Origin: Candidatus Harrisonbacteria bacterium
Lineage (GTDB): Bacteria; Patescibacteriota; Minisyncoccia; UBA6257; WO2-44-18
Assembly (NCBI GenBank): GCA_016182295.1
Contig: JACOXP010000009.1
Location: forward strand, 1-38,084
Reading direction: 5' to 3'
Length of the DNA stretch: 38,084 nt
A program made the position numbers and the translations under genes. Positions 1,419 through 7,162 of the stretch are shown piece by piece (within the stretch, counting starts at the first letter, position 1; each line of letters begins with the position of its first letter). A model generated the notes under the pieces. It was not told the DNA's origin, ran no database searches, and was given only the letters and a program-made list of their open reading frames with translations.

Positions 1419-2783
1419 TCATAGCATATAAGGAACATCCGATCCGCGTGTGGGAAAAGCATAGAGAACGCGTTTTAAATCATCTGCTGAAATACCAAAC
1501 CTTATCGCAACGGCAAAAACATTAATGAGTTCATCCGAGTGCGGACCGAAAAGATGGGCGCCTAAAACTTTTCCGCTCCCTTCTTCAATAATAACTTTAT
1601 GCCCAGAGTAAGCTTCGTTGCGCAAACGCGCGCTAAACCACTGAGAAGTGTCGGCGTAATTTAGGCGGTATTTCAATCCGTTTTTCTTCGCTTCGTCCTC
1701 TCCCATGCCAACGGATGAAAGCGGAGGAACGGTAAAAACAACGCTGGCAAGAGCGGTGTAATCCGGCTTTTCACGATTACCCTCTAGAATATTTTTTGCG
1801 ATTATTGTGCCGTCATATCCGGCGCGCGGCGTAAGGGGCGCGGCAAGATATGCCACCGCGTCTCCTCCGGCATATACCGAGGGATTGCTTACGCTCTGAA
1901 GAAATTCGTTAACTTTGACCCCGCGCTTGTCATATTCAATTCCGGCCGCTTCAAGGTTGAGATCGCTAATTGCCGGAATGCGTCCTGCGCCATGAACAGC
2001 AATATCTGCGTCAAATGTATATGTTTTCCCGTTGCGTTCTCCGTTCACTCGCACGCCCTGGCCGATTTTTTCTATCTTTGTTACCGAAATTTCTAATTCA
2101 ATTCCAATGCCTAAAGCCCGGCTTCGTTTGAGTAAAATGTCTGTTAATTCCGGCTCGAATTGTTCAAGGGGCCGCTCCCCTCTATGTAGAATAGTAACTT
2201 TCGCTCCGGCGAGTGCGGCAACATGTGAAAATTCAAATGAAATATATCCGCCGCCGATAAAGATAATTCGTTTAGGAAGTTCCTTCAACTCAAGAAAATT
2301 GTCGCTTATCGTCAAATGCTCAAAACCTTCTATGGGTAGCCGCGACGGTTCAGCACCCGTTGCTATAACGATGCGTTCAGCCTCAAGCACGTTACCATCT
2401 ACGACAATCGTATTCGGGCCTTCAAATCTCGCGTGACCATGATACATATCAATGCCTTTCTTGGCGTAGCCCTCCTCCGTTTTTTTAGGCGTTGCATCGG
2501 TGTCTATCCGCTTGAAGCGCATGAGTGCCGGCCAGTCAATGCCGTGCTTTGCCGCGGACAGGCCATTTCCTTTCATCCGCCGAATAGCATCAACTGCCTC
2601 TGCCGCGCTTACCAGAATTTTTTTTGGATGACAGCCGCGAAGGGCGCAGGTCCCGCCGAACGGACGGGAATCAATAACCGCAACTGATTTTCCCGCCTTC
2701 TTCGCTTGCGCAGTCGGAGCCCCGGATGCCGAACCCGTTCCAATAGCTATAAGGTCGTATTTTTTTGCGGTGTTTTTTATCAT
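1419..2783 (-). CDS. FAD-dependent pyridine nucleotide-disulfide oxidoreductase (glutathione/mercuric reductase-like)
   Basis: GGTCALRGCHPKK redox motif, GGGYISFEF NAD(P)-binding motif, YAGGDAV; C-terminal FPTRGSD where HPTxxE is typical. Confidence 0.85.
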   Translation of the reverse strand: MIKNTAKKYDLIAIGTGSASGAPTAQAKKAGKSVAVIDSRPFGGTCALRGCHPKKILVSAAEAVDAIRRMKGNGLSAAKHGIDWPALMRFKRIDTDATPKKTEEGYAKKGIDMYHGHARFEGPNTIVVDGNVLEAERIVIATGAEPSRLPIEGFEHLTISDNFLELKELPKRIIFIGGGYISFEFSHVAALAGAKVTILHRGERPLEQFEPELTDILLKRSRALGIGIELEISVTKIEKIGQGVRVNGERNGKTYTFDADIAVHGAGRIPAISDLNLEAAGIEYDKRGVKVNEFLQSVSNPSVYAGGDAVAYLAAPLTPRAGYDGTIIAKNILEGNREKPDYTALASVVFTVPPLSSVGMGEDEAKKNGLKYRLNYADTSQWFSARLRNEAYSGHKVIIEEGSGKVLGAHLFGPHSDELINVFAVAIRFGISADDLKRVLYAFPTRGSDVPYML

Positions 2784-2787
2784 ACTT

Positions 2788-5166
2788 TTATACTTTATGC
2801 CCGCCGAATACGGCGCGGAGCGATGAAAGAATTTTTCCGGTAAACGAAGGGTGCTTTTTTGAACGCACTCGAAAGAGATACGAATCTTTTATAACCGGCG
2901 CGGGAATGCCTAATTCTTTAGCGGTTTTCACCGTCCACTCCCCTTCGCCAGTATGCGCTACGATCCCCGATGCTTTTTTTAAATCTTCTCCGTATTCTCT
3001 AAAGCCCTCTTCGAGCCACCCCGTCAGGCGCGAGGTAATAATGCTGTTCTGATTGTACACATTGGCGACATCTTTCAGAGAAAATTTAAACGGAGAATTT
3101 TTGAGTATCGTAAATCCTTCGGCGAGCGACTGCATCATCCCATACTCAATGCCATTGTGAACCATTTTTGCAAAATGTCCGGCACCGGATTTTCCCAAAT
3201 ATCCAGAAGGTGTATCGGACATCGCGTCGAAAATCGGCCTGCTTTTATCATATATCTCTTTTTCACCACCGGCCATGATGGCAAATTTTCCGAGTTGAAT
3301 AGAAACCGGCCCGCCAGAAACACCGACATCAAGAAAATGAATACCTTTGACTTTTAACTTCTTTTCGCGTCGAATCGAATCTTTGTAGAAAGAATTTCCT
3401 CCGTCAACGACGACATCTCCTTTGTCTAAGATATGCGCAAGACCTCCTGCTCCAAAAATCACTTCATCCACGGGCTTACCGGCCGGAACCATAAGCCATA
3501 CGGTGCGTGGCGTATGAAGTTTGTCCACGAAATCTTTCAGAGAATATGTGCCGACAACGCCTTCTTTTTCAAGCTCTCTAGTGGCTTCGGGCGCTCTGTT
3601 GAGCCCAACAACCTGCCATTTTTTTGCGGCTAAACGTCGAGCAAGATTCCCGCCCATTTTCCCTAAGCCAATAATTCCAATTTTACCGGCGAGGGCACCG
3701 GTTTTTATGTCTTCGCTGTCCGGCCGTTTTTGCACAAAAGACGGACATGGTGTCGTATCCGGTTTGTATTCTGCCAGAGGAATAAGATGACGCTTCCATT
3801 CATCCACGATCGAATCCGTGAATTTCCATGCCGCTTCGATTTCGTTTTGGGAAACAAAAGATGTCTGTTCGCCCATTATTGTCGCGTACAGCACTTTCGC
3901 ATACTCCGCCACATATTGAATTTTCACCTCTTTTTCGTAAAGAAAGAATGAAAATACGCGTTCTTCCAAAATACGATCAAAGCCGGGTTTTTTTGTCCAG
4001 AAATGGATAATGATTTCATCATTCGGTTCGAGACGGAACACTATTTGGTTTGGCCGATGCGGCCCGACTTCGCACAAAAGGCATGCTTTGGGGTGCTTTA
4101 ATGTAACGACAATCTCTTTGCGCGCTTCGGCTAGGCGTTTTCCAGCCTCAATAACAATCGGCACGCCGTTCCAACGCGGGTCGTCAAGTTCGGTTTTCAG
4201 AGCAAAGTATGTTTCCGTAACTGAATGCTCGCGCACGCCGTCCACTTCAAGATAGCCCTTGTATTGGGCACGAAAAGTGTTTTTTTGAATTGAATCTTTG
4301 GTCCACGAAAGTAGGGCGGTTAAGACACGGGCGCGATTCTCGCGGATCGTTTCGGCATTGCTGAGAGCAGGATGTTCCATAAGCAAGGTTGCGAGCATGG
4401 CAAGCAGGTGATTTTGGCCGACATCGCGCAACGCGCCGACCGCATCATAAAAACCACCGCGCCCTTCGACTCCTATGGATTCAAGAAGTCGAATATCTAT
4501 GCGCTCAATGGTTGTGTTGTCCCAGGTGTTTTCAAAAAGATTATTAGAGAAACGAAAATTTTCTATTCCCTGAATAATCTCTTTAAATAAATAATGATCT
4601 ATGCGGTAAAGCTGTTCCTCCTTAAAGTATGCCAAGAGAAGGGACTGCAAGTTTTGCGCGCTCATTAAATCCGTACCGAAGGGTTTTTCAATAAGCAGGC
4701 GGCTCCAGCCAAGTTTACCGCCACACGGCAAATTCAGCTTCACTCCCGCCAAATTTTCAAAAATCGGTTTGTAGGTTGCTGGGGGCGCGGCAAGATAGAA
4801 AAGTTTGTTTGCGCAGACGCCCCATGATTTTTCTGACGCCTCAATGGACTTAGCCAGCACGCGGAAGGCCGCGGCATCTTCAAACTTGCCTGCATGATAC
4901 GAGAAGAGATCCGCAAAGCGGGAAAGTTTTTCATCACGTATTTCCGAATTGCTTTTATTGCGGACTGCGGATTCTATAGACGATTTGAATTTGTATTCAG
5001 ATATATCGCCGCGCGAGAATCCGATAACAGAAAAACGGTCTCCTAGGAGATTCTGATCAAAGAGTCGCCAGAGCGACGGAATAATCTTTCGCGTTGCCAA
5101 ATCGCCGTTGATGCCAAAAACGACAAGAATAGTCGGTGTATTATTTTTTTGCGGTTTATCTTTCAT
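2788..5166 (-). CDS. Fusion protein: glucose-6-phosphate dehydrogenase + 6-phosphogluconate dehydrogenase
   Basis: N-terminal FGINGDLATRK, LIEKPFGTD, RIDHYLFKE, IGVEGRGGFYDAVGALRDVGQNHLL (Zwf); C-terminal KIGIIGLGKMGGNLARRL, DGGNSFYKDSIRR, GVSGGPVSIQLGKFAIMAGG, SGAGHFAKMVHNGIEYGMMQ, TGEGEWTV (6PGDH); uninterrupted 792 aa ORF. Confidence 0.92.
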   Translation of the reverse strand: MKDKPQKNNTPTILVVFGINGDLATRKIIPSLWRLFDQNLLGDRFSVIGFSRGDISEYKFKSSIESAVRNKSNSEIRDEKLSRFADLFSYHAGKFEDAAAFRVLAKSIEASEKSWGVCANKLFYLAAPPATYKPIFENLAGVKLNLPCGGKLGWSRLLIEKPFGTDLMSAQNLQSLLLAYFKEEQLYRIDHYLFKEIIQGIENFRFSNNLFENTWDNTTIERIDIRLLESIGVEGRGGFYDAVGALRDVGQNHLLAMLATLLMEHPALSNAETIRENRARVLTALLSWTKDSIQKNTFRAQYKGYLEVDGVREHSVTETYFALKTELDDPRWNGVPIVIEAGKRLAEARKEIVVTLKHPKACLLCEVGPHRPNQIVFRLEPNDEIIIHFWTKKPGFDRILEERVFSFFLYEKEVKIQYVAEYAKVLYATIMGEQTSFVSQNEIEAAWKFTDSIVDEWKRHLIPLAEYKPDTTPCPSFVQKRPDSEDIKTGALAGKIGIIGLGKMGGNLARRLAAKKWQVVGLNRAPEATRELEKEGVVGTYSLKDFVDKLHTPRTVWLMVPAGKPVDEVIFGAGGLAHILDKGDVVVDGGNSFYKDSIRREKKLKVKGIHFLDVGVSGGPVSIQLGKFAIMAGGEKEIYDKSRPIFDAMSDTPSGYLGKSGAGHFAKMVHNGIEYGMMQSLAEGFTILKNSPFKFSLKDVANVYNQNSIITSRLTGWLEEGFREYGEDLKKASGIVAHTGEGEWTVKTAKELGIPAPVIKDSYLFRVRSKKHPSFTGKILSSLRAVFGGHKV

Positions 5167-5208
5167 ATCACCGTTGTTTAGACAGAAAAAACTTTACGAT
5201 TATCAGTT

Positions 5209-6669
5209 TTATATACAACAACTTAATTTAGAAATATCTTTTGTAAACGATAGCGCGACAATTTTTATCGCTTCTGAAAGCGTTGGGAACATCGGGAGCG
5301 AATTGACCACATCGTCAATCGTGTTTTTGTTTTTTACCAACATCATCGCCTCGGCGATCAGCTCTCCGGCGTTTGGCGCGAGAATATGCACGCCGAGAAT
5401 TTGTTTCGTTTTCGGATGAATCGCCATTTTTATCATTCCCTCGGTGCGGTGCATGATAATCGCTTTTGGCACATCCTCAAACGAAACTGTGCGGCAGGCG
5501 CACACTCCCATTTGCTTCATCTGCTCGTCTTCAGTAAAGCCGACACCCGCAAGCTGAGGGTCGGTAAAAATAGTGTAGGGCACGGCATTATAATCTATGC
5601 TTTTGAGCGCCTGCCCTTCCGAAGCTCCGGAGGAGCGAAGGAGGGCGTTTTCAGCGGCGAGCGTTCCTTCCCGTCCGGCGGTTGGTTCAAGCCGCAAGGG
5701 TCCGCTCGTAACATCACCCACCGCGAAAATATTTTTGTTGGAAGTTTGGAAATGCTGATTTACAACGACCGCCTGCCCTTTGTTCACCTCAACGCCGACA
5801 ACATCAAGACCAAGCCCTTGCGTGTTGGGTGTTTTGCCTGCCGCTAAAAGTATTTCATCGGCGGACACTTCTTCCTGCCCCTCGCCGATCTGGTACGAAA
5901 CAATTTTTTTATCGCCCTCTTTGCGCGCGTTTTTTACCTCAACATTGGTCTTGATAATAATTCCTTCTTTTGAAAGTATCTCGGTGAGCCGATCAGTAAG
6001 AGCTTTTTCAGAGTGCGGAAAAATTGAATCGCCGCGCTGTAAAATAGTTACTTTCGTGCCAAAACGGCTGAACATTTGGGCAAACTCCAAGCCGACAGGG
6101 CCTGCACCGATGACGACTAATTCTTTCGGTTGTTTTTCAAGGCGCAACGCTTCGATATGTGTAACAAATCCAATTTCGTGGATACCCTCAATCGGCGGCA
6201 CATTGGCGGTGGAGCCCGCGGCGATAATAAATTTTTCCGCACTCAATTTTTCCCTAGCTTGCCCTGAACTTGTCGAACCAGTCGAAGAGGTCACCTCTAC
6301 CTCATTTTGAGAAACAAATTTTGCCTTTCCCTCGATTGCTGTTACATGTTCTAAATTTTTCAAGACCTTTTCATATTTCTCTTGACGTAGTTTTCCCACA
6401 AGCGAAAGTTCGTCTTTCACAACTTTTTGAAAATCAAAATTTTTCACTTCAAGCTCTACGCCGGCAACGCCGTGATGTTTGGCGTGGTGTAAAATTTCTC
6501 CGGCGTAAAGAAGTGTCTTTGACGGCACACAACCAACATTGACACAAGTGCCGCCGAGCGGAAGTCCCGAATTCACGAGCGCAGTCTTTGCGCCGAGCTC
6601 ATTGGCGCGGATTGCCGCCGCAAACGCGCCCGCTCCACCGCCGATAATGATAAGGTCAAATTTTTGCAT
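5209..6669 (-). CDS. merA: Mercuric reductase MerA-type protein (no N-terminal NmerA domain)
   Basis: GGTCVNVGCVPSK redox centre, LRQEKYEKVL, MFPTLSEAIK, C-terminal LSCCI (vicinal Cys pair as in MerA). Confidence 0.82.
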   Translation of the reverse strand: MQKFDLIIIGGGAGAFAAAIRANELGAKTALVNSGLPLGGTCVNVGCVPSKTLLYAGEILHHAKHHGVAGVELEVKNFDFQKVVKDELSLVGKLRQEKYEKVLKNLEHVTAIEGKAKFVSQNEVEVTSSTGSTSSGQAREKLSAEKFIIAAGSTANVPPIEGIHEIGFVTHIEALRLEKQPKELVVIGAGPVGLEFAQMFSRFGTKVTILQRGDSIFPHSEKALTDRLTEILSKEGIIIKTNVEVKNARKEGDKKIVSYQIGEGQEEVSADEILLAAGKTPNTQGLGLDVVGVEVNKGQAVVVNQHFQTSNKNIFAVGDVTSGPLRLEPTAGREGTLAAENALLRSSGASEGQALKSIDYNAVPYTIFTDPQLAGVGFTEDEQMKQMGVCACRTVSFEDVPKAIIMHRTEGMIKMAIHPKTKQILGVHILAPNAGELIAEAMMLVKNKNTIDDVVNSLPMFPTLSEAIKIVALSFTKDISKLSCCI

Positions 6670-6985
6670 AGTGATTGATTCTATCTTTCATCACCTCAAC
6701 AACAGGTGATTTTTTAAGTTTGTAATACACTGTGCGGAACTCGCGGCGGCTTTCAACCATATCCGCTTTTTGTAGCTTGCGGAGGGTGTGTGAGACGGCA
6801 GAAATGGAAACCCCAATGATTTCGGCAATTTCACCTACTGAAATCTCTTTATGGCGGCATAGAAGATAACAGATTTTAAGGCGTGTTGGGTCGCCGACCA
6901 TGTTAAATTCTCGCGCGCAAGCGATAATCGCATCTTTATTCCCAAGCTCTTTTTTAAGGTCGCTCTTTTTCATACTTGAATACAT
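6656..6985 (-). CDS. ArsR/SmtB-family transcriptional repressor
   Basis: winged HTH: FNMVGDPTRLKICYLLCRHKEISVGEIAEIIGVSISAVSHTLRKLQKADMVESRREFRTVYYKL; start placed at ATG 6985 because the predicted promoter lies just upstream; 14-bp overlap with merA. Confidence 0.85.
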   Translation of the reverse strand: MYSSMKKSDLKKELGNKDAIIACAREFNMVGDPTRLKICYLLCRHKEISVGEIAEIIGVSISAVSHTLRKLQKADMVESRREFRTVYYKLKKSPVVEVMKDRINHYAKI

Positions 6986-6991
6986 ATTCAA
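6976..6991. promoter_or_regulatory. Candidate ArsR-family operator TTGAATA-CA-TATTCAA
   Basis: Perfect 7-2-7 inverted repeat immediately downstream of the -10. Confidence 0.7.
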
Positions 6992-7020
6992 ATGATAGCG
7001 GACAAAAAGAAAAAAGGCAA
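6992..7020 (-). promoter_or_regulatory. Sigma70-like promoter TTGCCT-N17-TATCAT for the arsR-merA operon
   Basis: Minus strand -35 at 7020-7015, -10 at 6997-6992, 17-nt spacer. Confidence 0.6.
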
Positions 7021-7080
7021 CGAGTAATTTATTCATAAGGAGTTCCTTAAACTTTTCCGCGCAGGAAAGTTTTGTCTTGG

Positions 7081-7162
7081 TGCCCGGGGGGAGAGTCGAA
7101 CTCCCATGCCTTTCGGCGCACGATTTTGAGTCGTGTACGTCTGCCAATTCCGTCACCCGGGC
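7081..7162 (-). tRNA. tRNA-Leu (anticodon CAA)
   Basis: Reverse complement GCCCGGGTGACGGAATTGGCAGACG...CACGACTCAAAATCGTG...GGGAGTTCGACTCTCCCCCCGGGCA; long variable arm. Confidence 0.93.

Follow-up and report, generated by a model that had tools for sequence, protein, structure and literature searches.

Why would the gene for a mercuric reductase be followed, in the same run of genes, by a gene for two fused pentose phosphate dehydrogenases? This arrangement is found on contig C15 (JACOXP010000009.1) of a Candidatus Harrisonbacteria assembly (GCA_016182295.1; 632 kb, 19 contigs, estimated 91% complete). The whole 38,084-nucleotide stretch of C15 that was analysed is called the window here; genomes of the sampled relatives are about 0.5–1.4 Mb. 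Open reading frame and family searches confirmed four genes on the minus strand in the order arsR, merA, zwf::gnd and RED2, coding for a repressor, a mercuric reductase (MerA), a fusion of glucose-6-phosphate dehydrogenase (G6PDH) with 6-phosphogluconate dehydrogenase (6PGDH), and a second disulfide reductase. Judged from sequence and gene neighbourhood, the block is probably a compact patescibacterial mercury-resistance operon with a recruited reductant supply. It is a variant of the mer operon and not a new kind of system. The features of the locus are the following.

6992..7020, minus strand: promoter-like site TTGCCT - 17 bp - TATCAT, 9/12 consensus, with TATCAT recurrent in relatives
6976..6991, no strand: predicted ArsR operator TTGAATA-N2-TATTCAA, a perfect palindrome over the transcription start region
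6659..6973 (ATG; alternative start 6985), minus strand: arsR, ArsR/SmtB-family repressor (NF033788, PF01022)
5212..6669, minus strand: merA, mercuric reductase core, 486 amino acids (TIGR02053; nearest solved structures are MerAs)
2791..5166, minus strand: zwf::gnd, G6PDH fused to a short-type 6PGDH, 792 amino acids (TIGR00871, TIGR00872, NF007161)
1422..2783, minus strand: RED2, second NAD(P)/FAD-dependent disulfide reductase of the GbsMerA type, 454 amino acids (best PDB match 8K40)
7078..7162, minus strand: tRNA-Leu (CAA), directly upstream and outside the operon, a possible integration site (ARAGORN)

The genes are tightly packed: arsR and merA overlap by 14 bp (stop codons counted), merA and the fusion are separated by 42 bp, and the fusion and RED2 by 4 bp. 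A first-pass annotation of the sequence had described this gene order, the 14-bp overlap and the 4-bp gap, all of which were borne out. It had also proposed that the four genes form one ArsR-controlled module in which metal reduction is coupled to a dedicated supply of reduced nicotinamide adenine dinucleotide phosphate (NADPH).

Operator, repressor and reductases

A single ArsR-controlled mercury operon, as that annotation had it, is well supported by a MerA with both Cys pairs, a conserved operator, the tight packing, the lack of a second good operator and a RED2 family that recurs in mer operons. The promoter is followed immediately by TTGAATATGTATTCAA, and both lie upstream of arsR and downstream of tRNA-Leu. 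The operator is a 7-2-7 palindrome that overlaps the promoter, and regulator and merA share this one promoter and operator, as in a mer operon. Promoter-like sites in the region are no more numerous than in shuffled sequences, so that position and conservation carry the weight for the arsR promoter. Most related arsR-merA loci likewise have TATCAT just ahead of the operator, and all 19 of the patescibacterial arsR-merA loci compared have a perfect or imperfect palindrome of the ATTTGAA-N6-TTCAAAT type near the arsR start.

Elsewhere in this genome, an operator site with at most one mismatch was found only at a second arsR-merA locus on contig C16 (L133:8431-11319), which points to a simple regulon of two mer loci. 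The MerA of this second locus is 76% identical to that of the window, its operator is of the same type, and merA is followed there by membrane proteins, namely a PQ-loop protein, one in a MerT-like position and one that is MerC-like (below the MerC cut-off). An operator search of the window found no good site at the fusion or at RED2. Two further candidates were rejected: a second operator within the fusion (4985-5000), with two mismatches, was at chance level, and an internal merA promoter (5480-5453) was one of 7 sites where 7.7 were expected by chance.

ArsR scored 77.8 bits against NF033788 (cut-off 55) and also matched PF01022. Its three cysteines, in the motifs ACAREF and KICYLLC, are candidate metal ligands through which the protein would respond to metal; they are common to most merA-linked ArsRs and are replaced by a CVC-type motif in a few (G231, G420).

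MerA scored 517.8 bits against TIGR02053 (cut-off 454.45). Both the redox-active site (GGTCVNVGC) and the C-terminal vicinal Cys pair (KLSCCI) are present, and the N-terminal NmerA domain is lacking. The closest solved structures are the MerAs 5x1y, 4ywo and 1zk7. At the position of Tn501 Y441 the protein has Phe, and the alignment places its LE opposite the LE of 4ywo, with Glu at E317. The active, NADPH-dependent MerA of Metallosphaera sedula carries F441 paired with E317 (PMC4500099), which is the same E/F pair. The window enzyme is predicted to reduce Hg(II) with NADPH; MerA as such was already known from these candidate phyla (PMC8261052). As the first-pass annotation had indicated, merT and merP are absent, and no merC was found in the window locus either. 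Such Hg transport genes are common in mer operons but not obligatory.

RED2 fell below every named equivalog cut-off. Its nearest solved relative is by far GbsMerA (8K40; 419 bits, the next match 234), and its identification as a generic glutathione reductase was therefore rejected. GbsMerA comes from an ArsR-type mer operon, and its oxidation of NADPH with Hg(II), Ag and oxidized glutathione (GSSG) was measured (PMC10587081). RED2 has no C-terminal CC and ends DVPYML. Its plasmid homologues (42–53% identity) were viewed in 14 contexts: in 7 they adjoin merA or belong to its operon, and in 3 further ones they are near other mer genes, giving 10/14. The homologue adjoins merA, or is one small gene away, on plasmids of Staphylococcus, Planococcus, Phaeobacter, Salipiger, Rhizobium and Ruegeria, and lies inside the merA operon on a Rhodanobacter plasmid. 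The mercury assignment is strong because of these plasmid contexts and the closeness to GbsMerA. By gene content, the four genes make up a mer operon that includes the reductase usually found alongside merA, with zwf::gnd placed between the two. No strong RED2 match was found in the other 60 sampled genomes.

Two observations concern RED2 and its surroundings. On plasmid pMR68 (Pseudomonas sp. K-62, L178), a GH15 glucoamylase, two tandem RED2-type reductases and a glucose-1-dehydrogenase are encoded in one direction, possibly a parallel self-powered reductase cluster; apart from pMR68, no annotated sugar dehydrogenase was seen next to merA in the plasmid mer operons viewed. On the 3' side of RED2 in the window, before the next gene (771-1304), positions 1240-1304 include a short hairpin, rich in GC and with a T-run, as well as the promoter-like sequence TTGACT-17-TAGAAT.

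The fusion and its proximity to merA

The fusion scored above cut-off with TIGR00871 (zwf; 450 bits, cut-off 400.6), TIGR00872 (gnd_rel; 336, cut-off 297) and NF007161. Its G6PDH part covers residues of about 11-471 and its 6PGDH part about 495-792, joined by a short linker. The motifs RIDHYLFKE, RDVGQNH, NRAPE, SGGP, KMVHNGIEYGMMQ and FGGH were found; RIDHYLFKE is a variant of the catalytic motif RIDHYLxKE (G to F), and QNH is present. In the 6PGDH part an NR motif follows the second strand, which favours NADP, and from the GFSR and NRAPE motifs the fusion as a whole would prefer this cofactor. Its closest named relative by sequence is a Patescibacteria metagenome-assembled genome (MAG). G6PDH::6PGDH fusions also occur in MAGs labelled Actinomycetes, Coriobacteriia and Slackia (L027, L028, L030, L031), whose gnd parts group together, next to the patescibacterial ones.

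The company of merA and pentose phosphate genes is not confined to this genome (G000). Twenty-nine other patescibacterial zwf/gnd loci were gathered without regard to merA, and merA lay within 9 kb of zwf/gnd in three of them (L023, L032 and L084). The expected number was 0.0098, built on the presence of merA in 7 of 379 other phylum-sample genomes and on 398 kb of flanks. The probability of at least three such loci is about 1.6e-7, and of at least two about 5e-5, if genomes are treated as independent and gene positions as random, an assumption that holds only approximately. At L023 a DsbD/CcdA-like gene is followed by merA (85%), a pair of small membrane genes and a zwf::gnd fusion (69%), so the arrangement of merA with this fusion is conserved in a relative. 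At L032 (G594), a ROK sugar kinase gene is followed on the same strand by arsR, merA, a cyclase gene and zwf. At L084, gnd and a toxin-antitoxin-like pair precede arsR-merA, whose merA frame is broken; in this Microgenomates MAG (L084:2362-3797) merA lies in two frames, with the odd sequence PGGVRMYTPGCT at the break.

Several stricter readings were discarded. The same order does not hold everywhere, as merA with the fusion of G000 is common to L023 only. An apparent second merA in G419 (L119) is the same gene as in L032, and the label of phosphoglucose isomerase for the L023 gene after the fusion was withdrawn, since it has no NCBIfam match and its Pfam SIS match is weak. The gnd parts of G000 and L023 fall in one clade (100/98) together with that of G039, a genome with no match listed in the order-wide merA search. 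The nearest merA relatives of G000, G801 and G132, are both without a dehydrogenase. Shared descent of the merA-fusion pair was not upheld on these grounds; a single origin with losses is possible. A genome-wide excess of zwf/gnd among merA carriers was not seen either: zwf/gnd is present in 5 of 18 carriers besides G000 and in 10 of 61 sampled relatives, where the first count omits merA genomes added later and the low-scoring G110. The signal is therefore one of proximity and not of co-occurrence.

Neighbours were also read at 28 patescibacterial merA loci. Directly after merA, G469 has a gene for GAPDH, G231 one for a glutamate/leucine-type dehydrogenase and G343 one for a shikimate-dehydrogenase-like protein. 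Relatives of the last occur further down in G081 and G171, and a YjeF_N (NAD(P)HX epimerase-type) gene is present in G081 as well. About 8 of the 28 loci carry such dehydrogenase-type genes, the window, L023 and G594 included. On the MerA tree this label is scattered; six changes are needed, at least five of them forced by supported branches. Among 473 genes of at least 100 amino acids in the zwf/gnd loci, GAPDH does not occur and glutamate dehydrogenase occurs once, which indicates that these are not common neighbours in general.

Other gene arrangements were seen at these loci. Proteins of about 490-510 amino acids near merA in three genomes (L129:1241-2707, L130:10605-12086, L131:10556-12094) combine a shikimate-dehydrogenase-like domain with an N-terminal region that has CCE close to its beginning. 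At L156:4438-8498, merA and a CcdA-like gene are followed by a PfkB kinase, a LacD-type aldolase and a D-2-hydroxyacid dehydrogenase. At L122:6431-10687 a mer cluster (arsR, merA, MerT-like, DsbD-like, glutaredoxin) is embedded among ribosomal protein genes and read in the opposite direction to them. In several Patescibacteria a flavin disulfide reductase adjoins a membrane domain, or seems to be fused to one, in the vicinity of zwf/gnd or merA (L023:12316-14404, L077:5543-7393 and L126:2166-4211).

Proposed mechanism and rival explanations

In the mechanism proposed here, ArsR would sit on the palindrome over the arsR promoter and be released when a thiophilic metal, most likely Hg(II), binds its cysteines. 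The polycistronic mRNA would then yield MerA, which would use NADPH to reduce Hg(II) to Hg(0), and RED2, a putative further NADPH-dependent reductase whose substrates would be Hg(II), other soft metals or disulfides of low molecular weight. The fusion would convert one glucose-6-phosphate to ribulose-5-phosphate and CO2 with up to two NADPH, the cofactor for both reductases. Hg(II) might enter through the products of the transport-like genes of the C16 mer locus. Induction by Hg(II), the enzyme activities and cofactor supply as the reason for the clustering are all predictions from sequence.

The coupling to NADPH supply gains from the recurrent proximity of merA and zwf/gnd and from the other dehydrogenases in the same position; the word 'dedicated' was not upheld. 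The fusion is the only zwf/gnd match in the assembly, and it may thus serve general metabolism too. Other findings weigh against a recruited reductant supply as well. The fusion is present without merA in G024, G041 and G021, and in at least one of the other merA genomes that have zwf/gnd (G769) the two lie far apart. About 20 of the 28 merA loci have transport or thioredoxin genes instead of such a dehydrogenase. The dehydrogenase category was drawn up after the loci had been inspected, and GAPDH and glutamate dehydrogenase may use NAD rather than NADP; for both reasons the wider pattern is support and not proof. The 6PGDH of G418 lacks the Arg of the NR motif. Finally, RED2 has H and F in place of D47 and Y437, which are invariant in 13 homologues and are the proposed proton-transfer residues of GbsMerA (PMC10587081). 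Its activity may therefore differ, so that RED2 appears to be GbsMerA-type by descent and uncertain in activity.

A broader proposal, quite conceivable but short of probable, is that Patescibacteria repeatedly and independently joined NAD(P)H-generating dehydrogenases to an ArsR-merA core, forming self-powered detoxification operons under one metal-released repressor. The dehydrogenases meant are zwf::gnd, zwf, GAPDH, glutamate dehydrogenase and the shikimate-dehydrogenase-like protein, in a group with few NADPH sources.

The rival that survives best, unlikely as it is, makes merA and the fusion chance neighbours: an arsR-merA cassette was inserted at tRNA-Leu upstream of a pre-existing zwf::gnd, and it is of no functional consequence that they are co-transcribed. 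Integration at tRNA genes is common, and this tRNA gene lies directly upstream. merA is mobile in the phylum, where 91% identical copies occur in distant families, one of them beside a site-specific recombinase. The occurrence of the fusion without merA, and of most merA genes without a dehydrogenase, fits such an insertion as well. However, the fusion is flanked on its other side by RED2, itself a companion in mer operons, and so stands inside the mer block. The pairing is moreover repeated in L023, with proximity in L032 and L084, far above the number expected, and different dehydrogenases occupy the same position at other merA loci.

It is improbable that the fusion is a housekeeping oxidative pentose phosphate enzyme, providing ribulose-5-phosphate for nucleotides and merely sharing the transcript. 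Its status as the only zwf/gnd match in the assembly would suit this role, and in other Patescibacteria (G070) zwf and gnd cluster with sugar genes and without merA. Nevertheless, zwf/gnd is lacking in 51 of 61 sampled genomes, including all 7 sampled family members, which indicates that the step is dispensable in this order, and a housekeeping gene would be badly placed behind a metal-released repressor. As the same 7 of 7 family members lack merA and the fusion alike, the four-gene block looks accessory and acquired.

A general redox operon, in which ArsR senses thiol-reactive stress, the reductases treat disulfides or oxidants and mercury is incidental, would accord with the use of GSSG and Ag by GbsMerA, with the TlpA, CcdA or glutaredoxin-like neighbours of many merA genes and with a pentose phosphate fusion that suits oxidative stress equally, but it is hardly likely given the C-terminal CC pair and equivalog score of MerA, the MerT/MerC-like and HMA genes at related loci with the same operator, and the RED2 homologues in mer operons.

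Comparison with known systems

In the usual view, a mer operon consists of a sensor, an importer and a reductase, and its NADPH comes from the host cell. If a recruited reductant supply is correct, minimal-genome detoxification operons bring their own cofactor-regenerating enzyme, and cofactor supply is a limit under selection. The oxidative pentose phosphate pathway, absent from most sampled relatives, would then have an accessory role. The idea of self-supply would be directly testable by the addition or removal of one gene, and the operon would be a small cassette ready for use in mercury bioremediation. Both ArsR-type mer operons and mer operons with metabolic helper genes are already known. 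No report of a pentose phosphate enzyme (G6PDH) in a mer operon was found in the literature searched, an absence that is weak evidence.

A close parallel is the mer operon of Gelidibacter salicanalis (GbsMerA, 8K40/8K41; PMC10587081), which shares an ArsR and an NADPH reductase that is close to RED2 and lacks the C-terminal CC. That operon has MerT/P and a hypothetical protein and no dehydrogenase, and GbsMerA retains D47/Y437, whereas RED2 does not. The plasmid mer operons of Staphylococcus equorum, Planococcus, Phaeobacter and Ruegeria resemble the window in combining merA with a RED2-type NAD(P)/FAD-dependent oxidoreductase. They differ in having MerR-family or other helix-turn-helix regulators and transport genes, and no zwf::gnd between the reductases.

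For the fusion itself, no parcubacterial G6PDH::6PGDH fusion came up in a literature search. The one reported case of a G6PD::6PGD fusion, from the diatom Phaeodactylum tricornutum, was thought unique in 2011 (PMC3148214). The same two pentose phosphate dehydrogenases are joined there in one polypeptide; the diatom protein is eukaryotic, whereas that of the window has the short bacterial 6PGDH type, with many patescibacterial and some actinobacterial MAG members.

The recruitment of a metabolic gene in support of detoxification also has a precedent in Thermus thermophilus, whose mer operon contains the metabolic helper oah2 (Norambuena et al., as cited in PMC8261052). As outlined in that citing paper, oah2 supplies a low-molecular-weight thiol, whereas the window fusion would supply reductant.

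In ArsJ-GAPDH arsenate resistance pairs, GAPDH makes the arseno-metabolite that is exported. These pairs (the family is named by NCBIfam NF033735) likewise hold a central-carbon dehydrogenase inside a metal(loid)-resistance operon. They differ from the present locus, where no arsJ was seen and where the role of the dehydrogenase would be the supply of cofactor.

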